Part shown: positions 24,351 through 55,263 of the stretch, in pieces
How positions within the stretch are numbered: position 1 is the first letter of the stretch
Layout: the number at the start of each line of letters is the position of its first letter
Assembly: GCF_032460525.1 (NCBI RefSeq)
Contig: NZ_CP135963.1
Span: forward strand, 2,170,001 to 2,234,000
From: Geodermatophilus sp. DSM 44513
Lineage (GTDB): Bacteria; Actinomycetota; Actinomycetes; Mycobacteriales; Geodermatophilaceae
Reading direction: 5' to 3'
Length of the DNA: 64,000 nucleotides
Translations under genes and position numbers: made by a program
The notes under the pieces: model-generated
What the model was told of the DNA's origin: nothing
The model's input: the letters and a program-made list of their open reading frames with translations, nothing else
The model's database searches: none

Positions 24351-24360
24351 CCGTTATCCC
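24351..24360. repeat. intergenic motif copy A (CCGTTATCCC)
   Basis: CCGTTATCCC followed by TCACAC. One of five copies in the window; this one matches the 10-bp core only. It lies upstream of the MBL gene and downstream of the Rv1733c-like gene. Confidence 0.5.
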
Positions 24361-24400
24361 TCACACAGCAACCAGCAGGGACAGGGACCACCCCGGGCGG

Positions 24401-24991
24401 TCAGGGGACGCGGCGGCTCCAGGTGGGCTCGACCCGGGCCCACCCGCGCGTCCAGTACCGGTCCCTCCGGCGCTCCAGCAGCCGGCACAGCGCGGCGTGC
24501 AGGAGGACGACGGCGCTCAGGGTGCCGCCCCACCCGACGCCGACCAGGACCAGCGTGCTGCGCCGGACCTCCGCGGACGTCATCGGCTCGTCGGTGCGGC
24601 GGCCCTCGGCGGTGGTCCACAGCGTCAGGGTGTCCCCGGCGCGGGTGGCCGGGGAGGCGGGGACGGCACCGGTCACCGGCTCCCCGGCGGGGGAGGTCCA
24701 CCGCGCCGGGACGGGGACGCGCAGCCGCGGCGGGGCCTCCCGCGGGGCCACCGCGTCGGCGGTCGCGACGGCGGTCACCCGGGTGCGCTCCTCGGCCTGC
24801 GCCCGGGCCCGGGCGTCGAGGTCGGACCGGACCGCGGTGCCCACGGCGAGCGCGACCGGCACGGACAGCAGCACGACCAGCAGCACGAGCAGCCGGGACA
24901 CGCACTCCGCGGTGTCGACGCCGCGCTTCAGCGGTCCGGAGCCGAGGGTGAGCCGGCGGAGACGGCGGGCGAGCGGACCGGAGGGCGCCAC
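24401..24991 (-). CDS. Rv1733c-family membrane protein
   Basis: A 196-residue protein with two membrane helices (about residues 33-53 and 147-168) flanking an extracytoplasmic domain. The pattern RGVDTAECVSRLL, then AVGTAVRSDLDARARAQAEERTRV, and a C-terminal LLERRRDRYWTRGWARVEPTWSRR is characteristic of the Rv1733c family. Function unknown; the mycobacterial member is a dormancy-regulated antigen. GTG 24991 is chosen because GAGGAGG precedes it by 7 nt. Confidence 0.85.
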   Translation of the reverse strand: MAPSGPLARRLRRLTLGSGPLKRGVDTAECVSRLLVLLVVLLSVPVALAVGTAVRSDLDARARAQAEERTRVTAVATADAVAPREAPPRLRVPVPARWTSPAGEPVTGAVPASPATRAGDTLTLWTTAEGRRTDEPMTSAEVRRSTLVLVGVGWGGTLSAVVLLHAALCRLLERRRDRYWTRGWARVEPTWSRRVP

Positions 24992-25125
24992 GGCACCGCC
25001 TCCTCGTCGTCCGCGCGGACCCCTGCAGCGTGCACCCGGGCACCCGTGGTCGGGAAGGGGTGCGGGTCCGCCGCCGGGCCCATCGTGGCAGGTGGGGGCG
25101 GGAGCCGCCGTCCGGCCGCGTGCGC

Positions 25126-26109
25126 TCAGGCCGCGGCCGGCGCCGCGGCCGCGGACCACGCGCGCAGCCGGGCGAACCCCTCGTCCAGGCCCACCCGCGG
25201 CGCCCACCCCAGGGCCGCGCGGGTCCGGCGCTGGTCGAACCAGTGCGCGGTGGCCAGCTGCTCGGCCAGGAACCGGGTCATCGGCGGGGTCGACCGCCGG
25301 CGGGACACCGCCCACACCGCCTCCACCGCGGCACCGGCCGCGTACGCCGCGGCGAACGGCGCCCGGCCGCGCGGCCCGGGCACCCCCGCGGCCCGGCACA
25401 GCCGGTGCAGCACCTCCGCCACCGGGCGCGGTTGCCCGTTGGACACCACCAGGGCCTCCCCGTGCACCGGCCCGCAGGCGTCCACGGCGGCCACCAGGGC
25501 GCTCGCGGCGTCGTCGACGTAGGTGGTGTCGATCAGCGCCGCGCCCGAGCCGATGACCGGCAGCCGCCCGGCGCGCGCCCGCGCCACGATTCGCCCGACC
25601 AGCTGGGCGTCGCCCGGGCCCCACACCAGGTGGGGGCGGACGGCGAGCACGGCCAGGGCGGGGGAGTCCGCGGCGAGCGCGTCCAGCTCGGCCACGGCCT
25701 TGGAGCGGGAGTAGCGCCCGCGGGCGCGGTCCGGGTCGGCCGGCCCGGCACCGACCCCCACCAGCGCGGTGCCGGCGTGCGCCACCGACGGGGAGGAGAC
25801 GTGCACCAGCCGGCCTACGCCCCCGGCGCGGCAGGCCTCCACCACGGCGCGGGTGCCGGCGATGTTGGCCGAGGCGTACTCCGCCCACGGCCCGGTGACG
25901 TCGACCTTCGCGGCCAGGTGCAGCACGGCGTCCTGCCCGCGGGCGGCACGCCGCACGACGGCCGGGTCGGCGACGTCGCCGAGCACCTCCCGGCACGGCA
26001 GGCCGGCCGTCCGGCGCTGTAGCACGGTGACCTCGTCGCCGCGGTCGAGCAGCGCGCCGGCGGTGGCCCGGCCGAGCATCCCGCTCGCCCCGGTGACCAG
26101 CACCCTCAC
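25126..26109 (-). CDS. oleD: OleD, NAD(P)-dependent 2-alkyl-3-ketoacid reductase of olefin synthesis
   Basis: A 327-residue short-chain (extended) dehydrogenase of the 3-beta-HSD type. The N-terminal Rossmann motif is TGASGMLG, and the catalytic Tyr/Lys are in RYSRSKAVAE. In the ole pathway OleD reduces the 2-alkyl-3-ketoacid made by OleA to the hydroxy acid that OleC closes to a beta-lactone. Its GTG (26109) overlaps the oleBC stop as GTGA. Assignment rests as much on the operon (oleA-oleBC-oleD) as on sequence, because the SDR family is broad. Confidence 0.9.
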   Translation of the reverse strand: MRVLVTGASGMLGRATAGALLDRGDEVTVLQRRTAGLPCREVLGDVADPAVVRRAARGQDAVLHLAAKVDVTGPWAEYASANIAGTRAVVEACRAGGVGRLVHVSSPSVAHAGTALVGVGAGPADPDRARGRYSRSKAVAELDALAADSPALAVLAVRPHLVWGPGDAQLVGRIVARARAGRLPVIGSGAALIDTTYVDDAASALVAAVDACGPVHGEALVVSNGQPRPVAEVLHRLCRAAGVPGPRGRAPFAAAYAAGAAVEAVWAVSRRRSTPPMTRFLAEQLATAHWFDQRRTRAALGWAPRVGLDEGFARLRAWSAAAAPAAA

Positions 26110-28685
26110 GGCCGGCGGGCGCCGGCCAGCAGCGCGGCGGCCCGGCGGGCGACCTCGGCGCGGTCCACCTTCGACTGGTGGCGGACGTCCACCGGCAGCC
26201 GCCCGGCGAGGAGCACCGCGGCGACCTCCGTGCCGGCGGCGGCGCGCACCGCGTCGGCGAGGTCCGTGCCGGCCAGCCGCAGCCGGTCCGGGCGGCGGCC
26301 GGCCGCCGCCCCGTCGGCCGGGACGACGACCACCACGAGGACCTGCGCGCCGGCCGGGCCCACGCCGACGGCCGCGGCGGCGGTGACGCCGGGCACCCGC
26401 TCCACCCGCTGCTCGACGCCGACGGGGGTGACCGGGCCGGCGGCGGTGGTGACGACGTGCGGCAGGCGGCCCTCGACCCACAGCCGACCCTCGGCGTCCA
26501 GGTGCCCGACGTCGCCGGTGCGGTGCCAGCCCGGGTCCCGGGACGCGGCGCGCTCCAGCACCCACACCGCGTCGTAGCGGTCCTTGACGTGCGCGGCCCG
26601 CACGCACACCTCGCCGGTCGTGCCGGGGGCGTCGGTGAGCGGGCCGTCGGCCGCGCCGGCCGGGGACAGCGGGCTGACCCGGACGTCGACACCGGGCAGC
26701 GGCCGGCCCACGCAGACGCCGTCGCCGTCGCCGGCGGCCTCGATCTGCGCCAGCGACACGTCGGTGACCGGGAGGGCCTCGGTCATCCCGTAGGGCGTGT
26801 GCGCCGCGGCGTGAGGCAGCACCTCCCGCAGCCCGCGCAGCAGGGCGGCCGGGACCGGTGCCCCGGCCGACATCAGCAGCCGGACCCGGCCGAGCGCGGC
26901 CCGCCGGTCGTCACCGAGGTCCGCGGCGGTGGCCGCGACCCGCCGCAGCGCCGCCGGCGAGGCGAACACCACCGTGGCGTCGACGGCGGCCACGGCGTCG
27001 GCCAGCGCGGTGGCGGTCAGCGACCCCGGGGCGGTGACGTCGACGTCGGGCACCGCCGAGCCGATGCCCAGGCCCGGGCCGAGGATGGCGAACGGCGCGA
27101 ACGCGGCCACCAGCCGGTCGGTGTCGGCCAGGCGGTAGGTGGCGGCCACCAGGTCCAGCTGGGCGGCGGCCTGGCGGTGGGTGTAGACGACGCCCTTGGC
27201 CGGGCCGGTCGCCCCGGAGGTGAACAGCACGGCGCAGTCGGTGTCCACCGGCGGCTCGGCCGGCGCGGGCGACGTCCGGCCGAGGACCTCCAGCCCGGCC
27301 AGGGTGTGCCCGGCCCGCAGCACCCGCCGCGCGGCCGGGGTCAGGTGCCCGGCGGCGACCCGGGTGCCGGGCAGCCCCATCAGCCGCGCCGCGGCCAGCC
27401 CGCGCGCGCTGCCGACGACGTGGTCGACGGCCGCGCTGCGCAGGGCGCGGCGCATGCCGGCCAGGCCCAGGCCCTTGTCCGCGACGACGACCACGGCGCC
27501 GGCGCGCCAGAGCGCGTACACCGCGGCGGTGAGGTCGGCCGAGGGCTCCACGAGCAGCGCCACCCGGTGCCCGGGGCGGACCCCGGACGCCGCGAGCCCG
27601 GCGGCCAGGTCGCCCACCCGGCGGGCCAGTCGCGACCAGCTGACCGTGGCGCCGCCGACCTCGACCACGGCAGGCGTCGCGTCGTCCGCGCGCCGGTCCA
27701 GGGCCGACCACAGCCGGCGCCCGGCGTCCCCGGCCGGCCGGGCCGCCACCGAGGCGTGTCCTGTGTCGTGCCCGGCGTCGAGGTCGGCCACCCACTGGGC
27801 GACCGCGCCGGCGTACCCGGGCGCGTCCTCGGGCAGCAGGTGGGAGGCGCCCTCGTAGCGGTGCAGCCGGGCCTGCGGCAGCCGGCGGCGCAGGTCGGTC
27901 AGGTAGCGCTCGCCGAAGACCGGGTCGCGCGGGCCCCACAGCAGCAGCGCCGGGACGTCGAGGGTGCGCACTCCCTCGGCGATCGCCTCCTGCACCGGCC
28001 GGGAGGGGTGGTCGGGGGCGAAGGGGATGTCGGCCACGAAGTCCCCGACGGCGTGCCGCCGCGCCGGCGACCGGTAGGGAGCGGCGAAGGCGTCCCGGAC
28101 CCCGGGGGGCAGCGCCGGGCGGGACAGCGCCGTGGTGGCCCGGACGAACACCGGGGTGCCGACGGTGACCGCCGCGCGCACCCCGGGGGCGTTGGCCAGC
28201 CGGATCAGCGCCGGGCCCAGGTCGCCCGGCGGCATGGCGACGGCGGTGTTGGTCAGGACGACGCCGCGCAGCTGCGCGCGGTGCGCCAGCGCCCAGCCCA
28301 GGGAGATGACCCCGCCCCAGTCGTGCCCGACGGTGACCACCGGGCCGGTGACGCCCAGCGCGGCGGTCAGGTCGCCGAGGTCGGCCACCCGCTGCGCCAG
28401 CGACCGCGGACCGGCCGGGCGGTCGGAGAAGCCCATGCCGAGCTGGTCAGGGGCGACCACCCGCCAGCCCGGCGGCGCGGCGGCCACCAGCCGGCGCCAC
28501 AGGTAGGACCAGGTGGGGTTGCCGTGCACGCACAGCAGCGTGCCCACCGGGTCGCGGACCCCGTTGTCGAGGAGGTGCCAGCAGTGCTCGACGCCCTCGC
28601 TGTCGCGGACCCGCACCGTGCGGGACCAGGAGGGGTCCAGCCCGGGGAGGGCGGTCGGGACGATCGCCGCGTCGGCCGCCCTCAC
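26106..28685 (-). CDS. oleBC: OleBC fusion: beta-lactone decarboxylase plus beta-lactone synthetase
   Basis: An 859-residue two-domain protein. Residues about 1-300 are an alpha/beta hydrolase of the haloalkane-dehalogenase type (OleB): HGNPTW oxyanion region, nucleophile D122 in GHDWGG, acid D254 in GPRDPVF, base H282 in ASHLLPED. Residues about 315-859 are an AMP-binding enzyme (OleC) with FTSGATGPAKGVVYTH (488-503) and WHRTGDVGHLD. OleC converts the 2-alkyl-3-hydroxy acid to a beta-lactone with ATP; OleB decarboxylates it to the cis-olefin. Fused OleBC proteins are known in Actinobacteria. GTG 28685 overlaps the oleA stop as GTGA, and the 3' end overlaps oleD likewise. The longer in-frame reading into oleA is a shadow. 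Confidence 0.93.
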   Translation of the reverse strand: MRAADAAIVPTALPGLDPSWSRTVRVRDSEGVEHCWHLLDNGVRDPVGTLLCVHGNPTWSYLWRRLVAAAPPGWRVVAPDQLGMGFSDRPAGPRSLAQRVADLGDLTAALGVTGPVVTVGHDWGGVISLGWALAHRAQLRGVVLTNTAVAMPPGDLGPALIRLANAPGVRAAVTVGTPVFVRATTALSRPALPPGVRDAFAAPYRSPARRHAVGDFVADIPFAPDHPSRPVQEAIAEGVRTLDVPALLLWGPRDPVFGERYLTDLRRRLPQARLHRYEGASHLLPEDAPGYAGAVAQWVADLDAGHDTGHASVAARPAGDAGRRLWSALDRRADDATPAVVEVGGATVSWSRLARRVGDLAAGLAASGVRPGHRVALLVEPSADLTAAVYALWRAGAVVVVADKGLGLAGMRRALRSAAVDHVVGSARGLAAARLMGLPGTRVAAGHLTPAARRVLRAGHTLAGLEVLGRTSPAPAEPPVDTDCAVLFTSGATGPAKGVVYTHRQAAAQLDLVAATYRLADTDRLVAAFAPFAILGPGLGIGSAVPDVDVTAPGSLTATALADAVAAVDATVVFASPAALRRVAATAADLGDDRRAALGRVRLLMSAGAPVPAALLRGLREVLPHAAAHTPYGMTEALPVTDVSLAQIEAAGDGDGVCVGRPLPGVDVRVSPLSPAGAADGPLTDAPGTTGEVCVRAAHVKDRYDAVWVLERAASRDPGWHRTGDVGHLDAEGRLWVEGRLPHVVTTAAGPVTPVGVEQRVERVPGVTAAAAVGVGPAGAQVLVVVVVPADGAAAGRRPDRLRLAGTDLADAVRAAAGTEVAAVLLAGRLPVDVRHQSKVDRAEVARRAAALLAGARRP

Positions 28686-29707
28686 CAGGCGATCTCGAGG
28701 AAGGAGGCGTTCAGGCCCGAGCCGATGCCCATGAGCAGCACCCGGTCGCCGTCGACGAGGGAGTCCTGCCGGTCGGCCAGCGTGAACGGCACCGACGCCG
28801 GACCGAGGTTGCCGCGGGTGGGGAAGGTCGTGGGCACCCGTGCCGGGTCGATGGCGAACCGCTCGCACATCGCCTGGGTGTGCACCTTGGACACCTGGTG
28901 GACGACGTAGCGGTCCATGCCGGCGGCCCAGCCGAAGTCCGCCGACGAGCCGGTCCACAGGTCCGCGGCGAGGTTCAGCCCGGCGTCGAGCAGGCCCTTG
29001 AGGTCGGTGCGCATGAGGTCGTTGTCGCCGATGCACAGCTCGTGGTGCTCGCTGCCGGCGCGGCTGGCCGACCCGACCAGGCGGTGGCCCTCGGGGTGCC
29101 GGTCCGCGCGGCCGAGCACCATGGCGGCCGCACCGGAGCCCAGGGTCAGGGTGGCGAACTGGGCGAGCACGTCCTTGGACGTGGTGTCCGGGCCGTTGAG
29201 CCGCTCGACGGTGCGCTCCTGCACCGGGCGGGAGTCCTCCCCGTTGACGATGAGGGCGTACTCCACCATCCCGGAGTCGATCATCGCGGCGGCCAGCTCC
29301 ATGCCGTTGACGAAGCCCAGGCAGGCGTTCGTGACGTCGAAGTTCTGGCAGGAGCGGGGCAGGCCCAGCGCGTGGTGCACCTCGACGGCGGTCGAGGGCT
29401 CCAGGTGCCGGCGGCTCACCGAGGTGTTGACCATCAGGCCGATGGCCGCCGGGTCCACGCCGCTCTCGCTGATGGCCTTGGCGCCGGCGGTGGCCGCGCC
29501 GTCGACGAAGGTGACGCCCTCGGCCCACCAGCGGCGCTCGCGGATGCCGGCCAGCCGCTCCAGCAGGCCCGGCCGCAGCCGCACCCGCCGGTAGGTGTCG
29601 GCGAGGGCCTCGTCGAACGCGTCGGAGGTCACCACCCGGGTGGCGTCGGCCGTCTGCACGGCCAGGACCGCCGTGTTGGTGAACCGGTGCGTGGCGTTAC
29701 CGCTCAT
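28682..29707 (-). CDS. oleA: OleA, acyl-CoA head-to-head condensing thiolase
   Basis: A 341-residue thiolase-fold enzyme. C129 (NACLGF), H270 (VVHQVSK) and N300 (TRGNLG) form the active site. E103 (HLEPSTA) lies 26 residues before the cysteine, matching the spacing of E117/C143 in Xanthomonas OleA, and H270/N300 match H285/N315. This glutamate distinguishes OleA from FabH. It joins two fatty acyl-CoAs into a 2-alkyl-3-ketoacid. It is the first gene of the ole operon; ATG 29707 has only a weak RBS (GAGCAG). The promoter should lie in 29708-29992, where no clear -35/-10 is visible. Confidence 0.93.
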   Translation of the reverse strand: MSGNATHRFTNTAVLAVQTADATRVVTSDAFDEALADTYRRVRLRPGLLERLAGIRERRWWAEGVTFVDGAATAGAKAISESGVDPAAIGLMVNTSVSRRHLEPSTAVEVHHALGLPRSCQNFDVTNACLGFVNGMELAAAMIDSGMVEYALIVNGEDSRPVQERTVERLNGPDTTSKDVLAQFATLTLGSGAAAMVLGRADRHPEGHRLVGSASRAGSEHHELCIGDNDLMRTDLKGLLDAGLNLAADLWTGSSADFGWAAGMDRYVVHQVSKVHTQAMCERFAIDPARVPTTFPTRGNLGPASVPFTLADRQDSLVDGDRVLLMGIGSGLNASFLEIAW

Positions 29708-29992
29708 CTGCTCGTATCAGTCCTCGGAGGGAGTCGTCTGTCGTGCCGGTGCTGCGTCGTCGGGTGCGTCGTCGGTGGGGCGGGCCGTCGGGGACGGGTA
29801 CCCCGCCCACGGCCCCGGTACCCGGCGCGCAGCGGTGGCGGTCCGCCGGGGGCGGAGAGCCGGTCGGGTGCACGTCGCCGGGGCAACGACGGGCTGCGGG
29901 TCGGTGTTCCTGCCGCACGAGCGTCCCACCGCGGTGTGACGACCGCGTACCGCGCCCGGTCCCCGTCCCTGCCGGCGGCGCCCGGCCACGGG

Positions 29993-31381
29993 TCAGCGGA
30001 CGACGAGCACGTCCCCGAAGGCGGTCGCGTGCCGGCTGGTGAACGGGTAGCTGCCCGGCTCCTGCGGTGCCGGGAAGGCCAGCAGGCTGCGCGGGGGGAC
30101 GACGACGTCGAAGGAGCCGTCCGCCGCGGTGAGCGTGACCTCGGCGTCCGTCGGGTTGTGCACGGTGACCCGCGCACCCGCGGCGACGGGGCCCGCGACG
30201 TGGAACCGCGCCGGGTCGACCAGCACGCCCACCGACAGGTCGCCGTGGTCGTGGCCGGCCATCCCCGCCGGCGCCGCGGCCGCCGGGGCGGGCGCGGCGG
30301 CGGGGGCCGCGGGAGCGGGGTCCGCCGCCGGGGGAGGGGAGGCCGCCAGCGCCACGGCCAGCGCGACCGTGGCCAGCATGACGGCGACCTCGACGGCGGC
30401 CAGCCGCCGGAAGGCACCCGGCTGCCCGCTGCGCAGCCGGGGCAGCGTGCGCCGCCGGTGCGCCCGGCCCAGGACGCCGAGGGCCACCAGGGCCGCCGTC
30501 TTGGCCAGCAGCAGCCCGCCGTAGCCGCTGCCCAGGACGGTGCCGGGCGAGGTGGTCCGGTCCAGGACCAGCCAGGCGGCCACCAGGCCGGACAGCCCGG
30601 TGGCCAGGAAGCAGGCCAGCGCCAGGGTGCTGAAGCGGCCCGTGGCGGTCGCGGCGTCCGCTCCGGACCGGCCGTGCAGCAGCAGGGCGAGCAGGCCCCC
30701 GACCCATGCGGTCGCCGCCACCACGTGCACGGCCAGGGCGGTCACCGCCGGCACGTGGTCCGCGGCCGCCGCGGAGTGGCCGGTCAGGACGGCCGGGACC
30801 ACCAGCCCGGACACCGCGACGGCGAGCAGCAGCGCGGCGGGCAGCGCACCGGTGCACCGCCGCGCCAGCACGGCCACCAGGCCGGCCGCGCCGACGGTCA
30901 CCGCCGCGGCCCGTCCCGCGGGCAGGTCGGTGAGGAAGACCCCCACGGCCGACGCCGGCACCGTGGTGGGCGGGGTGCCGAGCACGTCGGCCAGGGTGAG
31001 CAGCGCGGCGGCCGCGGCCGCGACGGCCCAGAGCGGCGCCCACAGCGCGGCGGCCCGCGCCGCGCGGCGCGACGCCGCGGGGAGCCCGCCGCCGTGGCCG
31101 GGGAGCAGCACGGCGGCGAACAGCAGCGACCCCACCGTGCCGACGGCCGCGACCCGCCCCAGCAGGGTGGCCGCGGGCAGCCCCCAGGCGACCAGCGGAC
31201 CGGCCTGCCCCAGCCCGGGCACGGGTTGCGCCGGGCGGCCGCCGCCGAGCACGAGGGCCAGCACCAGCACCCCGAGGAGCCCGGCGCCGGCCGCCACGAC
31301 CGTCGGCACGGCCGACGGCGGCCGCGCCGCGCCGGCCGGCAGCGGCGGCTCGGCGGTGAGCGTCCCCGGCACGGCGCTCAC
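29993..31381 (-). CDS. copD: CopD-family copper protein with C-terminal cupredoxin-like domain
   Basis: A 462-residue protein. About eight membrane helices carry a CopD-like core (VHVVAATAWVGGLLALLLHG). A Pro/Ala linker with GHDHGD then leads to a beta-sandwich tail: VTVHNPTDAEVTLTAADG, ending SYPFTSRHATAFGDVLVV. The tail resembles cupredoxin-type domains fused to CopC/CopD proteins. Role: copper movement across the membrane together with CopC (inferred from family). GTG 31381 overlaps the copC stop as GTGA. Confidence 0.88.
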   Translation of the reverse strand: MSAVPGTLTAEPPLPAGAARPPSAVPTVVAAGAGLLGVLVLALVLGGGRPAQPVPGLGQAGPLVAWGLPAATLLGRVAAVGTVGSLLFAAVLLPGHGGGLPAASRRAARAAALWAPLWAVAAAAAALLTLADVLGTPPTTVPASAVGVFLTDLPAGRAAAVTVGAAGLVAVLARRCTGALPAALLLAVAVSGLVVPAVLTGHSAAAADHVPAVTALAVHVVAATAWVGGLLALLLHGRSGADAATATGRFSTLALACFLATGLSGLVAAWLVLDRTTSPGTVLGSGYGGLLLAKTAALVALGVLGRAHRRRTLPRLRSGQPGAFRRLAAVEVAVMLATVALAVALAASPPPAADPAPAAPAAAPAPAAAAPAGMAGHDHGDLSVGVLVDPARFHVAGPVAAGARVTVHNPTDAEVTLTAADGSFDVVVPPRSLLAFPAPQEPGSYPFTSRHATAFGDVLVVR

Positions 31382-31968
31382 GCCCGGCGCCGGGAGCGCA
31401 GCAGGACCAGCGTGGCCGCCACGACGACCACGCCGGCCGCGGCCGGCACCAGCCACCCCGACCCGGGCGACGACCCCGGCGACGACCCCGGCGACGGCCC
31501 CGGCGACGGTGCCGGGACCGGCGCGGCCGCGACCGCGGGGGTGTCCGCGCCGGCGCCGGCGACCGCGGGGGCCGGGGCCACGGTGAAGGCGAGGGTGCCC
31601 GACAGCGGGTGCCCGTCGGAGGAGGTCACCCGCCAGGCGACGGCGTGCAGCCCGCCGGCCGGGTCGACCGCCAGCGGCTGGACCACCGTGGCGCCGCGCA
31701 CCTGCGGCGCACCCCGGGACACCGCGGCGCCGTCCGGCCCGGTGACGACCACCTGGGCGCCCAGCGCCTGCACCGGGGCGCTGAACTCCAGCTCCACCTG
31801 CGCCGGCGGCACGGGCACCGTCGCGTCGGCGGCCGGCACCGTGGCGACCAGCCGGTCGTGCGCCCGGGCGGCCGGCGTGCCGGTGCCCAGCAGGGTGAGC
31901 ACGGCGGCGGCCAGCACCACCGCTGTCCGGGCGGCCGGGCCGGGGGCGCCGGGGCGTCGTCGCGACAT
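31378..31968 (-). CDS. copC: CopC-domain periplasmic-type copper-binding protein, membrane-anchored
   Basis: A 196-residue protein. The signal peptide (about 1-40) ends in an ARA-HDRL site, so the mature protein would begin with histidine, the N-terminal copper ligand of CopC. The second motif, SSDGHPLSG, supplies the Asp/His ligands. After the roughly 95-residue sandwich come a Ser/Pro/Gly repeat linker (PSPGPSPGSSPGSSPGSG) and a C-terminal membrane helix with a RSRRRA tail, so it is tethered. It is the first gene of copC-copD; upstream is a long divergent region with the CHRD gene. Confidence 0.92.
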   Translation of the reverse strand: MSRRRPGAPGPAARTAVVLAAAVLTLLGTGTPAARAHDRLVATVPAADATVPVPPAQVELEFSAPVQALGAQVVVTGPDGAAVSRGAPQVRGATVVQPLAVDPAGGLHAVAWRVTSSDGHPLSGTLAFTVAPAPAVAGAGADTPAVAAAPVPAPSPGPSPGSSPGSSPGSGWLVPAAAGVVVVAATLVLLRSRRRA

Positions 31969-32316
31969 GACCTGCGTTCGCGCGCCGCCGCCGTCCCGGT
32001 TGTCGCAGCCGACGGCCCGCCCGCCGCGCGGGGACGCCGCCCGGCCCGGTGACCAGCGGGGACGCCGTCCGCCGGCACGCGGGGTCGGCCACCCGATCGT
32101 GTCGACCGGGCCGGGCGGTGAACCGGTCGGGGCGGTGCCGCCGAACGTCCATCGGGACGGTGCGGAGGCCGGCGTGCAGACGCCGGCCGGGGGAGCCGCC
32201 CGTGCTGCCGGGTCCCGCGGGACTCGGACGGCGGCCGGCGCGAGGACGCGCCGGCCGTGCACCACCGAGCCGTCGTCACGGAGACGTCGGTCGTCCCGAC
32301 CCCTGAGGAGCCCATC
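31969..32316. promoter_or_regulatory. divergent regulatory region between copC and the CHRD gene
   Basis: This is 348 bp without a convincing gene. It holds a perfect 9-bp inverted repeat, GGCCGGCGT (32167-32175) and ACGCCGGCC (32180-32188), with a GCAG loop. No CsoR-like TACC/GGTA site was found, so this copper pair is probably controlled differently from the csoR module. No confident -35/-10 pair seen. Confidence 0.45.
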
Positions 32317-33084: not shown

Positions 33085-33093
33085 CCGGCACGC

Positions 33094-33130
33094 CGCGTCG
33101 CGCGGGGGTCCCGCACCCCCGCGCGACGCG
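33094..33130 (+). terminator. perfect 16-bp hairpin after the CHRD gene
   Basis: CGCGTCGCGCGGGGGT (33094-33109) and its exact complement (33115-33130) enclose a 5-nt loop, directly after the CHRD stop. No T-tract. Confidence 0.75.
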
Positions 33131-33205
33131 GGCGCCGTCCCGACAGTCCCGACCCCGCCGCGCCCGCACGGCCCTGACCCCGCCGTACCCATCCCCGGAG
33201 GCCCC

Positions 33206-34798: not shown

Positions 34799-34814
34799 CC
34801 GTTATGCCCAACAA
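34799..34814. repeat. intergenic motif copy B
   Basis: CCGTTATGCCCAACAA, preceded by GCTA. It differs from copy C (47224) by two substitutions. It lies between the SDR start and the 3' end of the Cys-containing small gene, both on the minus strand. Confidence 0.55.
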
Positions 34815-39220: not shown

Positions 39221-39223
39221 GCC

Positions 39224-43354: not shown

Positions 43355-43927
43355 GTGAGCGACCAGAGCAAGGGCTCCCAGGGTCAGCTCTTCAGCGACG
43401 CTGCCGTGGGCGCGCAGTCCTACGACGAGGTCGACAGCGACCTCGTCGGGTACCGCGGCCCGACGGCGTGTGCCGCTGCCGGCATCACCTACCGTCAACT
43501 GGACTACTGGGCCCGCACCGGCCTGGTCGCCCCCTCCGTGCGCAGCGCCACCGGCTCGGGCACCCAGCGGCTCTACTCCTTCCGCGACATCCTGGTGCTC
43601 AAGGTCGTCAAGCGGCTGCTGGACACCGGCGTCTCGCTGCAGAACATCCGCAAGGCCGTCGACCACCTGCGCAACCGCGGCACCAAGGACCTCGCCAACG
43701 TCACCCTCCTGTCCGACGGCGCCACGGTGTACGAGTGCACCTCCGCCGAGGAGGTCGTCGACCTGCTCGCCGGCGGCCAGGGCGTGTTCGGCATCGCCGT
43801 GTCCGGCGCGCTGCGCGAGCTGACCGGCGAGCTCGCCGAGCTGCCCGCCGAGCGCGTCGACGGCGCCCCGCTGCACGCCACGGACGACGAGCTGTCCCTG
43901 CGCCGCCGCCGCCGCGCGGCTGTGTAG
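43355..43927 (+). CDS. MerR-family regulator (Rv1828-like)
   Basis: A 190-residue protein. The MerR DNA-binding domain (about 32-105) has [43 protein letters not shown] and [12 protein letters not shown], followed by a ligand-like C-terminal domain with [20 protein letters not shown]. The protein corresponds to mycobacterial Rv1828. It is expressed from its own promoter (43203-43231) and may also control gcvP, which starts 218 bp downstream. Confidence 0.88.
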
Positions 43928-44004
43928 CTGGTCGCCCTCCGGGCTCCGACCGCGGCCAAGGTCCATCCCCGGCTCGCGCTGAGCCCATCCGTCGTCCTCC
44001 GCCG

Positions 44005-44021
44005 GGGAGCCTCCGGCTCCC
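44005..44021 (+). terminator. hairpin between merR and gcvP
   Basis: GGGAGCC (44005-44011) pairs with GGCTCCC (44015-44021) across TCC, in the 218-bp gap before gcvP. Likely a terminator for merR or a leader structure for gcvP. No glycine-riboswitch signature was recognised in the gap. Confidence 0.4.
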
Positions 44022-44145
44022 GCGCCGGAAGCCGACCCTCGCAGGCGGCTCCTGTCCCAGCGTCTTCGGCTCTCGTCCCGTCCCTCCTCGCGGGGACCCT
44101 GCGGGCCCCCGGTCGGAGGGACGGAGCGCTGGTACCGTCCGCGTA

Positions 44146-47142
<2,997 letters not shown>

Positions 47143-47171
47143 CGCGGCGGCGCCGCGCCCGCGGCGTCCCG

Positions 47172-47206
47172 GGGACCACCCGGCCGACCCTCGGCCGGGT
47201 GGTCCC
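47172..47206 (+). terminator. perfect 16-bp hairpin after gcvP
   Basis: GGGACCACCCGGCCGA (47172-47187), a 3-nt loop CCC and the exact complement (47191-47206), 30 bp after the gcvP stop and before convergent coaA. No T-tract. Confidence 0.8.
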
Positions 47207-47223
47207 GCATCAGCGCCGTACTA

Positions 47224-47239
47224 CCGTTATCCCGAACAA
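47224..47239. repeat. intergenic motif copy C
   Basis: CCGTTATCCCGAACAA preceded by CTA, between the gcvP terminator and the coaA stop. This copy is between two convergent 3' ends, so it is not in an obvious promoter position. Confidence 0.55.
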
Positions 47240-47292
47240 ACCTCACCGAAACGCCACCAGGGGAACAGCGGTGACCGGGGGAGGGCCCCGGG

Positions 47293-48255
47293 TCAGATCT
47301 TGCGCAGCAGCACCCGCCGGACCTCGTGGTCGGCGGCCTTCTGCAGCACCAGCCGGGCGCGGGACCGGGTGGGGGCGATGTTGTCGCGCAGGTTGGGTCC
47401 GTTGACCGCCGCCCAGATGTCCAGCGCGGTGTCGCGGGCCTGCTCGTCGGTGAGTCCGGCGAACCGGTGGAAGTAGGCGCTGCTGTCGGCGAAGGCGGTG
47501 CGGCGCAGGGCGAGGAACCGCTCGACGTACCACCGCCGGATGTCGGACTCCGGGGCGTCGACGTAGACGGAGAAGTCGAAGAAGTCCGACAGGAAGACCT
47601 CCGGGGCGCGGCCGTCGGCCGAGCGGCCGGCCTGCAGCACGTTGAGCCCCTCCAGCACGAGGATGTCCGGCCGGTCGACGACCTGCCGCCCGTCGCGGAC
47701 GACGTCGTAGGCCTGGTGGTCGTAGAGCGGGGCGCTGACCTCGCCGCGGCCGGACTTCACCTCGGCGAGGAAGCGCAGCAGCGCCCGCCGGTCGTAGCTC
47801 TCGGGGAAGCCCTTGCGGCCGAGCAGCCCGCGGGCCTCCAGCTCGGCGTTGGGCAGCAGGAACCCGTCGGTGGTGACCAGGTCGACCCGCGGGTGGCCGG
47901 GGCCGGCGGCGAGCAGGGTCTGCAGCAGCCGGGAGGTGGTGCTCTTGCCGACGGCGACGCTGCCGGCGACGGCGATGACGTAGGGCACCTTGGCGGTGGC
48001 GTCGCCGAGGAACTCGCTGCGGGCCGCCCACAGCCGCCGGCTGGCCTCCACGTGCAGCCGCAGCAGCCCGGCCAGGGGCAGGTACACCGTGGTGACCTCG
48101 TCGAGGTCGATGCGGTCGCCCAGGCTGGCCAGCGAGGCCAGCTCGGCGGCGTCCAGGGGGAGGGAGGTGCCCGCCGCCAGCGCCCGCCACGAGTTCCGGT
48201 CGAAGACCGCGTAGGGCGACACCTGGGGCCGTGCCGCTGCGGTCACGCCGCCCAT
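47293..48255 (-). CDS. coaA: type I pantothenate kinase
   Basis: A 320-residue kinase of the CoaA type. The P-loop is GSVAVGKST; the family motifs [19 protein letters not shown] and LEGLNVLQ follow. It phosphorylates pantothenate with ATP, the first step of CoA synthesis. The start is uncertain among ATG 48255, GTG 48246 and an upstream GTG; homology begins near [14 protein letters not shown], 12-16 residues in. Convergent with gcvP. Confidence 0.95.
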
Positions 48256-48377
48256 CCCAGTGCCGTCACGGGGCACATCGTGCCGTCCGGTCCCGCGGCC
48301 GCCTCCGGCCGGGTGGCGGAGGCGGGCGGCGGGCCGCGGCGGCGGCCACGGGGGGCGCCGGCGTCTAGGGTGCGCGT

Positions 48378-49196
48378 GTGTCCCTGCCCCCCGGGCTGCT
48401 CCACCGCGTCGAGCGGTACTTCGCCGCGGCGCCGCTGCCCGACGTGCGGGTGGAGACCGCGGGCGGCCTGGACGTGCCCGTCGGCAGCCCCACCTGGCCC
48501 TACCCGGCCCGGCCCCGGCCGGGGGAGCGGGTCACCGCCGACGACGTCCGCGCGGCCGCGGCGCTGCAGGAGGCCGCGGGGCTGCCGGTGGCGGTGGAGT
48601 GGGTGTGCGAGGACTCGCCGACGGCGGAGGCCGCCGTCCGGGCCGCGGGGCTCGTCGTGGACTCCGCGCCGCTGCTGGTGGCCGCGGACCCGGTCGAGCT
48701 GCTGCTGCCCTCCGGCGTCCGGCTGTACCTGGTCGGTGCCGACGACCCGCAGCTGCCGCGCTACGAGCAGCTGGCGTCGATCGCGTTCGCCCACCCCGGC
48801 CCGTACCAGGAGGCCGGCGACACGGCGGTCGTGCCGGCCGTCGGCACGACCCCCGGCTCACTGCGGACGGCGGTGCTGCGCGAGCGGATCGCCACCGGCC
48901 GCACCGTCATGATGGTCGCGGTGGAGGGCGGCGCGCCGGTCGCGGTCGGCACCCACCACCCGGTCGACGTCGAGGGGGTCGAGGTCACCGAGATCGCCGG
49001 CGTGGCCACCCTGCCGCGGCTGCGCGGCCGCGGGCTGGGCGCGGGGCTGGCCTCGGCGCTGACCGCGCACGCCCGAGAGACCGCCGAGCTGGTGTTCCTG
49101 GTGGCCGGGGACGACGACGTCGCCCGGGTCTACGAGCGGACCGGGTTCGCCCGGCTGGCGACGGTGGGCCTGGCCGACCTGTCCGGCGGGCCCTGA
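48378..49196 (+). CDS. GNAT-family N-acetyltransferase
   Basis: A 272-residue protein. The C-terminal GNAT domain has the acetyl-CoA loop in [17 protein letters not shown], preceded by VTEIAGVAT and followed by [18 protein letters not shown]. The N-terminal half is a degenerate second GNAT-like domain. Substrate unknown. GTG 48378. It diverges from coaA. Confidence 0.88.
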
Positions 49197-49203
49197 GCTG
49201 GGC

Positions 49204-50103
49204 TCAGAGCCCGGTGGGCACCGCGGCCGCGGCGGCGTCCAGGGCGGCCGCGGCGTCGGCCCAGCCGACCGAGGAGCGCACCTCGCTGAGCAGCACGACC
49301 ACCCGGTCGTCGACGACGCCCACCGAGTGCAGGTGCCGCTGGCCGGACAGGCAGCACATCCAGCCCTGCTTGACCGCGGGTTCGGGCAGGGTGCCGAACA
49401 CGCCGAACTCCTGGTCGAAGCCGTCGGAGGCGATCGGGGTGGCCGTGCCCATCCAGCCCAGCAGGGCCGCGGCGTCGTCGGGGTGGGCCACGACCGGCAG
49501 GCGGATCAGGAACCAGGCGAGGTCGTTCGCGGTCGTGGTCGTCTCACCCCACTGCCCCCACCGGCGCGGCGGGTCGGTACCGGCCAGCCCGTAGCGGGCG
49601 GCGACGTCGCGCACGGCCCGCGCACCGTCGAAGCGCACCCAGAGGTCGGAGGCGGCCGGGTCGTCGGAGCTGCGGATCATCACCTCCAGCTGCGCGCGGT
49701 CCCGGTCGGTGAGCGTCACGGCACCGGTGCGGGCGCGGTGCAGCACGTCCTCGGCGAGGTAGAGCTTGACCATGGAGGCGGTCGGGAACGGCCGGTCGGC
49801 CAGCTCGCTGCTCGCCCGGGTGGCCAGCATCCGGGCGCTGGCCGCCTCGGCGGCGCGGATGGACAGGCCCGCGAGGCGTTCCTGCTGCCGGGCGACCACG
49901 ACCGCCAGCGTGCCGACGTCCCCGTAGGCGGCGGTCACCGACGGGACGACGGCCGACGGAGGGGTGCCCTCCTGGGCGGCCGCGGCCCGCGGGGCGAGCA
50001 GGCCGGAGAGCACCAGGGCGAGGAGCACGACGGGCAGCACGAGGGGTGCTGCGACCGGCGGGAGGACGCGCGGGGCGCGCGGCAGTGCCCGGCCGGTGGA
50101 CAT
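49204..50103 (-). CDS. secreted beta-lactamase-like serine hydrolase
   Basis: A 299-residue protein with a long hydrophobic signal segment (about 12-43). The penicillin-recognising motifs are complete: S110-M-V-K113, S146-D-D, and K244-Q-G (replacing KTG). An uncleaved anchor is possible. Members act as D,D-peptidases or beta-lactamase-related hydrolases; the variant second and third motifs make activity on beta-lactams uncertain. Convergent with the GNAT gene, 7 bp between stops. GTG or ATG alternatives upstream were not needed; start 50103 (ATG) is clear. Confidence 0.85.
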   Translation of the reverse strand: MSTGRALPRAPRVLPPVAAPLVLPVVLLALVLSGLLAPRAAAAQEGTPPSAVVPSVTAAYGDVGTLAVVVARQQERLAGLSIRAAEAASARMLATRASSELADRPFPTASMVKLYLAEDVLHRARTGAVTLTDRDRAQLEVMIRSSDDPAASDLWVRFDGARAVRDVAARYGLAGTDPPRRWGQWGETTTTANDLAWFLIRLPVVAHPDDAAALLGWMGTATPIASDGFDQEFGVFGTLPEPAVKQGWMCCLSGQRHLHSVGVVDDRVVVLLSEVRSSVGWADAAAALDAAAAAVPTGL

Positions 50104-50178
50104 GCCGTCATCGTCCGCCGGGCAGGTGACGGGGACCTGACCCGCCAGGGTGACACCGTGTGTCGTACGCCGAGTGCG

Positions 50179-50210
50179 CCCGTTCCGTCACCGCCCGGTG
50201 ACGGAACGGG
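50179..50210 (-). terminator. perfect 14-bp hairpin at the end of the YbhB gene
   Basis: CCCGTTCCGTCACC (50179-50192), loop GCCC, and the exact complement (50197-50210), 4 bp beyond the stop of the minus-strand gene at 50215. On the minus strand the downstream DNA carries no T-run. Confidence 0.75.
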
Positions 50211-50214
50211 GGGT

Positions 50215-50751
50215 TCAGCGCTGCTCGTACGTGCCGACCAGCACCGCCCGGGCCAGGGTGTGGCTGAACAGCTGGAAGCCGAGGTAGGCCGGCGAGGCGT
50301 CGGGGGTCACCTCGAGCCGGTCGACGTCGACGGCGTGCACCGTGACGAGGTACCGGTGCGGCCCGTGGCCGGCCGGGGGCGCCGCGCCGACGTACCCGGC
50401 GAAGCCGGCGTCGTTGCGCAGCTGCACCGCGCCCTCGGGCAGGCCGCCGTCGGAGGCCCCGGCGGGCAGCTCGGTCACCGAGACCGGGAGGTCGGCGACC
50501 GCCCAGTGCCAGAAGCCGCTGTGGGTGGGCGCGTCGGGGTCGAAGACGGTGACCGCGAAGCTGCGGGTGGCCTCCGGGAAGCCCGACCAGGACAGCTGCG
50601 GCGAGCGGTCCTGCCCACCGGCGCCCATGACACCGCTCACCTGGGGCGCCTGCAGCGGCGCCCCGTCGGTGACGTCGGTGCTGGTCAGCTCGAAGCCCGG
50701 CACCTGCGGCAGGAAGTCGTAGGGGCTGGGCGGCGTCGGGCGGTCGGCCAT
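50215..50751 (-). CDS. YbhB/YbcL family (PEBP, Raf kinase inhibitor-like) protein
   Basis: A 178-residue PEBP-fold protein. Signatures are [27 protein letters not shown], split here as [13 protein letters not shown] and [15 protein letters not shown], then [13 protein letters not shown] near the C-terminus. Bacterial members bind small ligands and have unknown roles. ATG 50751 follows GAGGAG. Unlike secreted homologues it has no signal peptide. Confidence 0.92.
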
Positions 50752-50984
50752 GGCGTGCTCTCCTCGCGGGTCGGGTGTGCAGGGACGGCGCGTCCCTGCG
50801 TCCGACCCTAGAGAAGGGACCCCGTACCCCTCACCGTGAGAGGACCCGGTCCCCCTCGCCCCCCGCGGGCTCGGGACGAGCCCCCGGACCGGGCCGGCAG
50901 CGCGCCTCCGCACGAGGCCGCGGGTCGGTGAACTGCGGATTCCCGGCGCGGCGGGGGTGGACCGGCGCCGGTAGCGTCGCAGCC

Positions 50985-51716
50985 GTGCTCGGTCTCCCCG
51001 GCAACACCCGCGCGTGCCTGTTCGACCTCGACGGCGTCCTGACCCGGACGGCGACGGTGCACATGGCCGCCTGGAAGCGCACCTTCGACGAGGTGCTGGC
51101 CCGCGTCGACCCGGCCGCCGGGGAGTTCACGCAGGAGGACTACAACCGCTCCGTCGACGGCAAGCCGCGGCTCGACGGCGTCCGCGACTTCCTCGCCAGC
51201 CGGGGGATCACGCTGCCGGAGGGCACGCCGGACGACCCGCCCGACGCCGCCACGGTGCACGGTGTCGGCACCCGCAAGAACCAGCTGGTGCACGCCGAGC
51301 TCGCCGAGCACGGCGTCGAGGTCTACCCCGGCTCGGTGCGCTACCTGCGCGCGGTCAAGGACGCCGGCCTGGCCACGGCGGTGGTCACCGCCTCCCGCAA
51401 CGGGGCGCAGGTCATCGCCGCCGGCGGTTTCGCCGACCTCATCGACGCCCGCGTGGACGGCGAGGTCGCCGCCGCCCAGGGGCTGCGCGGCAAGCCGGCA
51501 CCCGACACCTTCCTGGCCGGCGCCCGGGCGCTGGGTGTGCCGCCGGAGGAGGCGGTGGTCTTCGAGGACGCCCTGGCCGGGGTGGCCGCCGGTCGGGCCG
51601 GCGGGTTCGGCCACGTCGTCGGCGTCGACCGCGTCGGGCAGGCCGCGGAGCTGGCGGCCTCCGGCGCGGACGTCGTCGTGCAGGACCTCGCCGAGCTGCT
51701 GGACGAGGAGCCGTGA
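50985..51716 (+). CDS. pgmB: beta-phosphoglucomutase-family HAD phosphatase
   Basis: A 243-residue HAD protein. The motif I nucleophile is in [21 protein letters not shown], with a cap domain containing [13 protein letters not shown], then [17 protein letters not shown] and VFEDALAGV. DxDGV plus the RxDGV-type cap points to beta-phosphoglucomutase, converting beta-glucose 1-phosphate to glucose 6-phosphate. It overlaps the GH65 gene by GTGA, which produces exactly that sugar phosphate. GTG 50985; nothing convincing upstream. Confidence 0.88.
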
Positions 51717-54073
51717 CGGAGGGCCGGCCGGACTTCCCGGTCGAGCCGTGGGCGCTGACAGAGACCGGGCTGGACCACGCCTCGCTCGCCGTCCACGAGT
51801 CGGTGTTCGCGCTGTCCAACGGGCACATCGGGATGCGCGGCTCGTTCGAGGAGGGCGAGCCGGTCGTCGTCCCGGGCACCTACCTCAACGGCTTCTTCGA
51901 GGAGCGGCCGCTGCCCTACGCCGAGGCCGGCTACGGCTTCCCCGAGCAGGGGCAGACCGTCGTCAACGTGACCGACGGCAAGCTGGTGCGGCTCCTGGTC
52001 GGTGACACCCCGCTGGACCTGGACTACGGCGAGGTCGTCGAGCACCGGCGCACCCTGGACCTGCGCCGCGGGCTGCTGCGCCGGCACACCGAGTGGCGCT
52101 CGCCCAACGGCCGGGTGGTCAGCGTGACCAGCACCCGGATGGTGTCGCTGCGCCGCCGCTCGATCGCCGCGATCGAGTACACCGTCGAGTGCACCGACGG
52201 GCAGGGCGACCTCTACATCGCGCTGCAGTCGGACCTGCTGGCCAACGAGCCGGTCGACAACACCGGCACCGACGACCCGCGGGCGTCGGCCGCGCTGGAC
52301 CGTCCGCTGGCCGGGGAGATGGCCGTGGCCCGCGGCCAGCGCGCCGTGCTGGTGCACCGCACCCGGCGCTCCCGGCTGCGCATGGCCGCCGGGATGGACC
52401 ACGTGGTGGAGGTGCCCGACACCTCGACCACCGACATCGAGGCCACCGACGACCTCGCCCGCTTCACCCTCGCCGCCCGGCTGCCGCAGGGCTCCTCGGT
52501 CCGACTCGTCAAGTACCTGGCCTACGGCTGGTCGTCGCGGCGCTCGGCGGCGGCGCTGCGCGACCAGGTCGAGGGGGCGCTGGCCACCGCCAAGCTGGCC
52601 GGCCTCGAGCGGCTGGTGCGCGAGCAGCGCGAGGTCCTCGACCAGCACTGGCAGCACGCCGACGTGGAGATCGAGGGCGACGAGGAGCTGCAGCAGGCGG
52701 TGCGGGTGGGCATGTTCCACCTGCTGCAGGCCGGGCTGCGGGCCGAGCGCCAGCCCATCCCGGCCAAGGGGCTCACCGGCCCCGGCTACGACGGGCACAC
52801 CTTCTGGGACACCGAGACCTACGTGCTCCCGGTGCTCACCTACATTGCGCCGGTGGCCGCCCGCGACGCGCTGCGCTGGCGGCACTCCACCCTGGAGCTG
52901 GCCCGGGAGCGGGCCCGCGTGCTGGGGCTGGCCGGTGCGGCCTTCCCGTGGCGCACCATCCGCGGCGAGGAGACCTCGGGGTACTGGCCGGCCGGGACGG
53001 CGGCCTTCCACATCAACGCCGACATCGCCGACGCCGTCGTCCGGTACTGGCACGCCACCGGCGACGAGGCGTTCGACCGCGACCACGGCGCCGAGCTGCT
53101 GATCGAGACCGCCCGACTGTGGGCGTCGCTCGGGCACTTCGACGACGAGCACGGCTTCCGCATCGACGGCGTCACCGGCCCGGACGAGTACACCGCGGTG
53201 GTGGACAACAACGTCTACACCAACCTCATGGCGCAGCGGAACCTGCGCGAGGCGATCGCCGCGGTGCACCGGCAGCCCGACGTCGCCGGCCGGCTGGACG
53301 TCGCCGAGGACGAGCTGTCCCTGTGGGAGCGGGCGGCGGCGCTCATGGCGGTGCCCTACGACACCCGGCGCGGGGTGCACATGCAGTCCGACGCCTTCAC
53401 CCACCACGAGGAGTGGGACTTCGCCAGCACGCCGCCGGACTGCTACCCGCTGCTGCTGCACTACCCGTACTTCGACATCTACCGCAAGCAGGTGATCAAG
53501 CAGGCCGACCTGGTGATGGCCCTGCACCTGCGCGGGGACGCCTTCACCCCGGAGGAGAAGGCCGCCGACTTCGCCTACTACGAGGCGCGGACGGTGCGCG
53601 ACTCCTCGCTGTCGGCGACCCAGCAGGCGGTGGTGGCCGCCGAGACCGGGCACCTGGCACTGGCCTACGACTACTGGGGCGAGGCCACGCTGACCGACCT
53701 GCAGAACCTGCACGGCAACTCCGGGCACGGCCTGCACCTTGCCTCGCTGGCCGGCGGCTGGACGGTCGCCGTCGCCGGGTTCGGCGGCATGCGCGACCAC
53801 GACGGGCAGCTCACGTTCGCCCCGCGGCTGCCCGAGCGGATCAGCCGGCTGCGCTTCCGGCTCAACTACCTGGGGCGGCTGCTGGTGGTCACCGTGACGC
53901 CGACCCGGGCCACCTACCGGCTGAGCGAGGGCGAGCCGCTCGACGTCCACCACCACGGCCGGCGGCTGACGGTGGGCGAGCAGGAGGTCGCCGCGGACAT
54001 CCCGCCCGCGCCCGAGGTGACCCAGGTGCACCAGCCGCCCGGCGTGGCGCCCCGCCGGCGCGGCCGCGGCTAG
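51713..54073 (+). CDS. glycoside hydrolase family 65 disaccharide phosphorylase
   Basis: A 786-residue GH65 enzyme. An N-terminal beta-sandwich precedes an (alpha/alpha)6 barrel with KGLTGPGYDGHTFWDTE, the general acid in VTGPDEYTAVV, and the phosphate/lysine segment VIKQADLVM. The family phosphorolyses alpha-glucosides (maltose, trehalose, kojibiose or nigerose) with inversion to beta-glucose 1-phosphate and glucose; specificity cannot be told here. Translational coupling to a beta-PGM completes the route to glucose 6-phosphate. Confidence 0.93.
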   Translation: MTEGRPDFPVEPWALTETGLDHASLAVHESVFALSNGHIGMRGSFEEGEPVVVPGTYLNGFFEERPLPYAEAGYGFPEQGQTVVNVTDGKLVRLLVGDTPLDLDYGEVVEHRRTLDLRRGLLRRHTEWRSPNGRVVSVTSTRMVSLRRRSIAAIEYTVECTDGQGDLYIALQSDLLANEPVDNTGTDDPRASAALDRPLAGEMAVARGQRAVLVHRTRRSRLRMAAGMDHVVEVPDTSTTDIEATDDLARFTLAARLPQGSSVRLVKYLAYGWSSRRSAAALRDQVEGALATAKLAGLERLVREQREVLDQHWQHADVEIEGDEELQQAVRVGMFHLLQAGLRAERQPIPAKGLTGPGYDGHTFWDTETYVLPVLTYIAPVAARDALRWRHSTLELARERARVLGLAGAAFPWRTIRGEETSGYWPAGTAAFHINADIADAVVRYWHATGDEAFDRDHGAELLIETARLWASLGHFDDEHGFRIDGVTGPDEYTAVVDNNVYTNLMAQRNLREAIAAVHRQPDVAGRLDVAEDELSLWERAAALMAVPYDTRRGVHMQSDAFTHHEEWDFASTPPDCYPLLLHYPYFDIYRKQVIKQADLVMALHLRGDAFTPEEKAADFAYYEARTVRDSSLSATQQAVVAAETGHLALAYDYWGEATLTDLQNLHGNSGHGLHLASLAGGWTVAVAGFGGMRDHDGQLTFAPRLPERISRLRFRLNYLGRLLVVTVTPTRATYRLSEGEPLDVHHHGRRLTVGEQEVAADIPPAPEVTQVHQPPGVAPRRRGRG

Positions 54074-54080
54074 GCCGGCC

Positions 54081-54785
54081 TCAGCCGAGGACCCACCAAC
54101 CACCGAGCAGCAGCGCGCCGACGTCGACGAGCAGGAAGACCCCGACCCACAGCACGGCGGGCAGTCGGGTGAGGCGGGCCAGCTGGTCGGCGTCGGAGTC
54201 CGGGGCGGCCCGCCGGCGGCGGGCCCGCTGCAGCTCGAGCACCGTCTTCGGTGCAGCCAGCAGCAGGAACCAGGTGACCGCGGCGGCGAACGCGGCCTGC
54301 CCGGCCGGCGGCAGCCACCCCGTCACGGCGAGGACGACGGCGCCGGTGGCCAGCACCGCCCACAGCCCGTACCAGTTGCGGATCTGCACCAGCAGCAGCG
54401 CGAGCAGGGCCAGCAGCGCCCACAGCAGGAGCGCGGCGTGCCCGGCGGCCAGCAGCGCGGCGGCCCCCAGACCGAACAGCGCCGGGCCGGGATAGCCAGC
54501 GGCGCAGGTCAGCACCATGCCGATGCCGGTGGGGCGGCCGGCGGACACGGTGAGCCCGGAGGTGTCCGAGTGCAGCCGGATGCCGGCCAGCCGCCGTCCC
54601 GCGGCCAGGGCCACCAGCCCGTGCGCGCCCTCGTGGGCGATGGTCACCACGGTGCGGGCCGGCCGCCACAGGGCGGGGGAGCCGACGACGACGGCCGCGG
54701 CGACCAGTGCGCCGAGCAGCACTGCCGTCGACAGCTGGGGGAGCGGGGTGGTGACCCGGTCCCAGAGCTGCGCGACGAGGTCCAC
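54081..54785 (-). CDS. M50-like membrane metalloprotease family protein
   Basis: A 234-residue protein with about six membrane helices. HEGAH (in TIAHEGAHGLVALAAGRR) is an HExxH zinc motif inside a hydrophobic segment, with TCAAGYPGPALFG further on, as in the M50B-like group. Whether it cleaves a regulator in the membrane is unknown. GTG 54785 lacks a clear RBS. A copy of the CCGTTATCCC motif lies about 57 bp upstream. The longer upstream opening is not supported. Confidence 0.8.
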   Translation of the reverse strand: MDLVAQLWDRVTTPLPQLSTAVLLGALVAAAVVVGSPALWRPARTVVTIAHEGAHGLVALAAGRRLAGIRLHSDTSGLTVSAGRPTGIGMVLTCAAGYPGPALFGLGAAALLAAGHAALLLWALLALLALLLVQIRNWYGLWAVLATGAVVLAVTGWLPPAGQAAFAAAVTWFLLLAAPKTVLELQRARRRRAAPDSDADQLARLTRLPAVLWVGVFLLVDVGALLLGGWWVLG

Positions 54786-54841
54786 GCGCGCAGTCAACCC
54801 CAGCCGGTTGGGGACACCTGGCTCGTGACGCCCCCTTACGT

Positions 54842-54855
54842 CCGTTATCCCCAAC
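54842..54855. repeat. intergenic motif copy D
   Basis: CCGTTATCCCCAAC, upstream of the M50 gene. It is 14 of 15 identical to copy E at 55249 when the preceding T is included. Confidence 0.55.
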
Positions 54856-55248
54856 GATATTGACAATCGGCTTGACCAAGAACACCCCCACGCAACAACA
54901 CGGGGGAGTGGCCCAGGGTCGAGAGGACGGCGACCCGACTCGGGGCGCCGCCGGCCCGCCACGGACGCCGGCCGCCGCTGCGGTGCCGCTCACGCCGGTG
55001 GGCGACCGGCCTCCCGGCCGCGAGGGAGGCGGCCCCGACCGACCTCGTCGCAGCGCCGCACGCGCCGGCGTCCCGCTCACCGGCCTGCGCCGGCCGGGGG
55101 AGTGGGGCTCGAGCAGCAGACTGCACCCCGCACCGGCGGGTGGGCCCAGCCGCCACCATCCCGGAGTCGTGTCCCCGGTCAGCCGGCCGCCTGCGGCTGC
55201 CGATGTGCAGAGCTCAGGCGCACCCGATCGGTTCACAGGACGTCGTAT

Positions 55249-55263
55249 CCGTTATCCCGAACA
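55249..55263. repeat. intergenic motif copy E
   Basis: CCGTTATCCCGAACA preceded by GTAT, about 95 bp before the LysE start and followed by an AT-rich stretch that could serve as a promoter. Confidence 0.55.

Follow-up and report, generated by a model that had tools for sequence, protein, structure and literature searches.

The window analysed here (64,000 nucleotides; bases 2170001–2234000 of the single-contig, 4,628,844-bp (4.63 Mb) genome of Geodermatophilus sp. DSM 44513) carries five copies of a short motif which is probably the asymmetric ter site of an apparently new replication fork trap in the Geodermatophilaceae. The arrangement of the copies around a putative dif site, their co-occurrence with one particular gene, and the presence of a copy just upstream of that gene are all computed directly from the genomes. 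With a little less assurance, we favour a fuller account, in which this is a third, independent fork trap and, judging by the literature searched, the first one in Actinomycetota, built from a domesticated Xer/Cre-type recombinase. The latter, a dead monomer, would clamp a polar, half-dif-like site and stop forks leaving the dif zone; it would be autoregulated like tus and rtp, and one outer site would be kept in a DNA ligase gene via codon choice.

The window copies, all on the plus strand and each at the position reported in an earlier note on this DNA, are listed below with dif, the copies in the remainder of the genome and the associated gene.

24351..24364, plus strand: ter-like site (CCGTTATCCCTCAC), the outermost plus-strand copy of the window; it lies upstream (by about 70 bp) of a beta-lactamase-fold gene on the minus strand (23503–24279).
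34799..34812, plus strand: ter-like site (CCGTTATGCCCAAC), close to where an SDR gene begins on the minus strand; an EF-G-like gene on the plus strand follows after about 0.5 kb.
47224..47237, plus strand: ter-like site (CCGTTATCCCGAAC), in the gap where gcvP (43468–47142, plus strand) and a PRK-family kinase gene (47293–48276, minus strand) face each other with their 3' ends.
54842..54855, plus strand: ter-like site (CCGTTATCCCCAAC), close to where an M50B-like gene on the minus strand begins.
55249..55262, plus strand: innermost plus-strand ter-like site (CCGTTATCCCGAAC), directly upstream of lysE (longest frame 55280–55993, plus strand) and 1.7 kb from dif.
56997..57024, minus strand: putative dif, core CGATAATGCACATTATGTCA at 57000–57019 (genome 2227000–2227019), inside the array and the single match in the genome.
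Genome 2194351, 2204799, 2217224, 2224842 and 2225249, plus strand: copies of CCGTTATNCC, the same as the five of the window.
Genome 2239302, 2240247, 2247642, 2270792 and 2608891, minus strand: copies of CCGTTATNCC beyond the window.
Genome 2239325–2240182, at the inner edge of the array and just past the window: candidate gene for the binding protein (285 amino acids).

When up to three mismatches are allowed, CCGTTATCCCGAACAA matches the window six times against 0.10 expected, a count that none of 100 dinucleotide shuffles reached. The sixth match, at 39222, was dropped because its core differs (CCGTGATCCC), and the core 10-mer alone, with one mismatch, shows no clear excess in the window (6 found, 3.19 expected). 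Four of the five copies continue with (G/C)AAC, as had been described, while that at 24351 has TCAC instead. The neighbours described previously are borne out by Pfam, as beta-lactamase-fold, SDR, M50B-like and LysE proteins; the genes whose 3' ends face each other around 47224 are a GcvP/PRK-family pair. The copy at 54842 sits inside the longest possible M50B frame, but ahead of its domain match, which begins at residue 85, and is therefore only probably intergenic. Known RNAs and tRNAs were absent from the window at gathering scores.

Across the whole genome CCGTTATNCC has 10 exact copies, of which 9 are inside 76 kb opposite dnaA, and a reversed control pattern gave 2 matches. The strand of the motif flips once along the genome, from five plus-strand copies to five minus-strand copies, with dif between them, so that copies left of dif are on the plus strand and those right of it on the minus strand. 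Since dnaA is at 1.5 kb, dif is placed 48% of the way round the chromosome. The separation of dnaA and dif is 46–54% of the contig in seven single-contig genomes (elsewhere 49% in G017, 53% in G024, 46% in G047, 52% in G049, 50% in G062 and 53% in G072), which puts the array opposite the origin. In the five Geodermatophilus genomes studied in detail every site faces dif, the inner site being 1.3–2.4 kb away on one side and 12–18.5 kb on the other. The two chromosome arms of strain DSM 44513 show almost no difference in guanine–cytosine (GC) skew (20 samples of 20 kb).

The same polarity extends well beyond the genus. All 24 same-genus relatives match CCGTTATSCCNNAC, while 16 genomes from other families of the order have 0 or 1 copy, and the motif was matched in 95 of 112 genomes of the family. 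Polarity was tallied from listed positions, covering 76 of the 95 matching genomes (105 contigs, 390 sites). All plus-strand copies lie left of all minus-strand copies on 70 of the 71 contigs that carry both strands (13 of these are pairs in genus g19), and 328 of 337 sites face dif, the exceptions being eight in g19 (one site each) and one in G109. In G109 the strand order is broken by one copy that lies close to the far end of its 4.22-Mb contig, probably a wrap-around of a chromosome presumed to be circular. The number and exact place of the sites vary, but the polarity is kept across genera.

Alignment of 57 sites from 11 genomes gave the consensus [A/T]CCGTTATCCCCAAC[A/T]. Since the search pattern itself prescribed positions 1–7, 9 and 10, their invariance is not a finding. 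Among the free positions, 8 is C in 51 of 57 sites, 11 is C in 49, 12 is A in 56, 13 is A in all 57 and 14 is C in all 57, with a weaker preference just outside. There was no mirrored conservation among these sites, i.e. the site is asymmetric and not palindromic, with its CCG end toward the origin and its AAC end toward dif. By eye, the site and the right arm of dif share TTAT...AAC, and a Xer half-site might be the ancestor of the motif.

The associated protein is 278–290 amino acids in length by called starts (mostly 281–287), is encoded by a single-copy gene, and is present in 93 of the 112 family genomes (in two pieces in G057 and partial in G110). Motif and gene occur together in these 93 genomes and are both absent from 17; two have the motif only (one of them is 72% complete, the other has a single motif copy), and none has the protein only. 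In all 67 cases in which gene and dif share a contig, the two are 7.7–23.5 kb apart, with the gene always on the same side of dif and encoded on the other strand. A strict motif copy is found not more than 60 bp upstream of the gene in 70 of 76 cases. In a second, overlapping set, a looser motif lies 26–30 bp before the called start in 76 of 81 distinct genes, and the other five have near variants there; variants such as GTTGGTGATAACGG were found upstream of the gene. A -10-like element (TAGTAT or TAGTGT, by eye) often follows this upstream motif directly, and binding would therefore cover the promoter. An order-level scan of 397 genomes recovered the protein in 67 genomes of the Geodermatophilaceae, plus two chance-level matches, and in a collection of named genomes 75 of 96 candidate stretches were confirmed as relatives, with titles that are nearly all Geodermatophilus, Blastococcus, Modestobacter or Trujillonella. 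Contig SPQJ01000009.1 (L131; titled Bacillus sp. AZ43, UNVERIFIED_ORG) has this Geodermatophilaceae gene, and the record is probably misnamed. A tight inverted pair of sites, about 150–165 bp apart, was observed upstream of the gene in L064, L065 and L058 (g19) and in G020:C537.

Searches of Pfam, NCBIfam and PHROGs gave nothing significant for the protein. A structure model built from a 99-row alignment (an earlier one from 11 sequences was too poor to use) has the predicted fold of a tyrosine recombinase, with a core-binding and a catalytic domain, and Cre, XerA and XerD lead the Foldseek and VIA-align lists; a viral fold library gave weak integrase matches (best E 0.011). With residues matched by element order only, the position of the first catalytic Arg reads as an invariant Pro, the matching helix has no conserved HxxR or His, and the last 36 or so residues lack a Tyr in all 99 rows (97 distinct). 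The catalytic residues (Arg, HxxR, Tyr) are apparently missing, and recombinase activity would be lost.

The polarity toward dif and the Xer-like fold are as compatible with a role linked to dif or FtsK as with one at forks. The main competing explanation, which we consider rather unlikely, is a polar landmark for chromosome segregation. In that case the sites, when bound by the protein, would leave forks unaffected and would instead steer, load or halt a DNA translocase (FtsK, SMC/MksB), or give order to the terminus around dif. FtsK-orienting polar sequences (KOPS) occur as many strand-biased copies along whole replichores, whereas the present motif has only 10 copies, 9 of them in 76 kb; matS, the site of MatP, is palindromic, whereas none of the palindromy of that site is seen in the 57 aligned sites. 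Also weighing against a landmark, it is a trait of tus and rtp that the promoter of the binding-protein gene contains a ter site (PMC10331603).

Whether the sites could instead be an operator set was judged from their gene context, using 41 sites in the five genomes and the nearest supported genes (a crude classing, some of the genes being kilobases away). By this measure 7 sites lie between convergent genes, 7 between divergent and 19 between tandem genes, 7 are unclassed and 1 is inside an open frame. All five genomes keep a copy beyond the 3' end of one and the same gene, that for the PRK-family kinase, at a distance of 48–68 bp. Where a gene starts within 300 bp, the motif shares its strand in 11 cases and is opposite to it in 9, yet 41 of 41 sites face dif. 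The protein would then be a repressor with a tyrosine-recombinase fold, like MrpR of phage SPbeta, and would control genes around the terminus. MrpR has lost recombinase function (PMC10516654) and provides a precedent for a dead tyrosine recombinase as a DNA-binding repressor. This reading fits poorly, and appears improbable, because an operator should follow genes, whereas these sites follow the direction of replication, lie on either strand relative to a gene and occur also between converging 3' ends; regulons are not expected to track replication polarity. The earlier note was right in viewing the motif as a conserved functional signal and in naming a nucleoid or repair signal as an option, but its regulator box or promoter element is not supported as the general function.

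The distant copy (L021:8886–8900, genome 2608886–2608900) lies inside a gene for a LigD-like ATP-dependent DNA ligase (Pfam PF01068, PF04679), as it does in nine other genomes (L208–L216). At first this copy was taken for a mere coding coincidence, a reading revised after a codon test. Across 193 columns of ten ligase orthologues, whose third-position GC is otherwise about 91–98%, codons end in A or T in all ten only at the CGT, TAT and GAA of the motif, and no other column does so in 7 or more of ten. Of five other distant copies, L218–L220 are in no coding-like frame, while L217 and L221 are inside an open frame with coding-like composition. A further alternative is that a mobile element or prophage left these repeats behind near dif and that they have no function today. 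The region near dif is a frequent target of insertions, and integrases share the fold. Such an origin is nonetheless very improbable, as the gene is single-copy, its alignment columns are on average 77% identical across 99 rows, the polarity is kept across genera, and the A/T-ending codons are kept in the ligase gene.

Returning to the fork trap, the system functions like one on paper, and it is a member of neither the Tus nor the RTP family. Tus (PF05472) and RTP (PF02334) were each found in 0 of 15 genomes, while the control searches were positive in Escherichia coli and Bacillus subtilis, respectively. A 2019 survey by Galli et al. (PMC6549158) recognised only two fork traps, the unrelated Tus-ter and RTP-ter, limited to four clades, and described the reason for their retention as an open question. 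In both, the ter sites face dif and the protein gene has a ter site in its promoter (PMC6549158, PMC10331603 and PMC13220808). The same papers describe for Tus-ter, in E. coli and its relatives, a small number of asymmetric sites, which form two opposed groups around the terminus and dif, a protein gene near the inner sites, and one site in the promoter region of that gene. All this resembles the present arrangement, in which the promoter is a putative one. Some outer sites within coding genes are a further likeness, the outer ter F–J of E. coli lying in genes (PMC10331603). Unlike in Tus-ter, the protein has a predicted tyrosine recombinase fold, the phylum is different, and fork arrest is only inferred. 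With RTP-ter of B. subtilis the system shares convergent sites, a gene beside them and a site in the (here putative) promoter of that gene, and the two g19 sites, with their spacing of about 165 bp, are reminiscent of terI and terII, which lie about 0.1 kb apart (PMC13220808). RTP, however, occupies two half-sites as dimers (PMC10331603), while the present site is a single asymmetric element of 14–16 bp. The protein differs from XerC, XerD, XerA and Cre in that its catalytic residues are apparently gone, and its sites are single, of half-site size and spread over tens of kilobases rather than paired as arms. With MrpR (and the phi3T repressor complex, 9rgl) it would share a tyrosine-recombinase fold used in a DNA-binding protein; MrpR is a prophage repressor, while the present gene is chromosomal and its sites are arranged by replication polarity.

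Several observations weigh against a fork trap of this kind. Neither Pfam nor the PDB yields a recombinase when searched with the sequence profile of the protein (PDB sequence matches are at chance level), and its alignment to XerD is not significant. The model is moderate (predicted local distance difference test, pLDDT, 79.6; predicted template modelling score, pTM, 0.58), Foldseek TM-scores are about 0.4 with only one match under E 0.001, and the catalytic residues were matched only by the order of helices and strands. GC skew marks no terminus in the genome of strain DSM 44513 (10 vs 10 samples, p 0.62). The ten genomes of the ligase codon test had been chosen because they carry the exact motif, which makes its result suggestive and not clean. 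Four genera of the same family are without motif and gene, except for a stray copy in G090; one of them has 9 genomes, 8 at 99% completeness. Genus g19 is the most difficult case. In most cases the strict pattern gives there only two inverted sites, separated by about 165 bp, which lie immediately upstream of the gene at some 20 kb from dif; among ten contigs with dif and sites, a site across dif is found only in two (G065, G070) and a single site in two (G066, G079), and eight contigs have one site on the wrong side. In this genus the trap may be the pair alone, somewhat like terI/terII of B. subtilis, or diverged sites may have been missed, or the motif may act on the gene only.

Binding, autorepression and polar arrest are inferences. 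The protein would bind the site, probably as a monomer on one stretch the size of a Xer half-site, and would repress its own promoter. A bound site would let pass forks that reach its CCG end, coming from the origin, and would stop those that reach its AAC end, leaving the dif zone, so that forks could enter the terminus but could not leave it. Neither this motif nor any fork trap in Actinobacteria was recognisably described in the literature searched (titles and the starts of abstracts, with subscription journals mostly and bioRxiv preprints wholly outside coverage).

Genus g24 (G091–G099) has dif in 8 of its 9 genomes, and neither motif nor protein. Close relatives with and without the system, such as g24, provide a natural experiment on its function. 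If the interpretation is true, replication arrest would be added to the uses of the tyrosine recombinase fold, and a third convergent origin, in a distant phylum and once more with the gene for the protein immediately preceded by a ter-like site, would argue that the need for fork traps is general.
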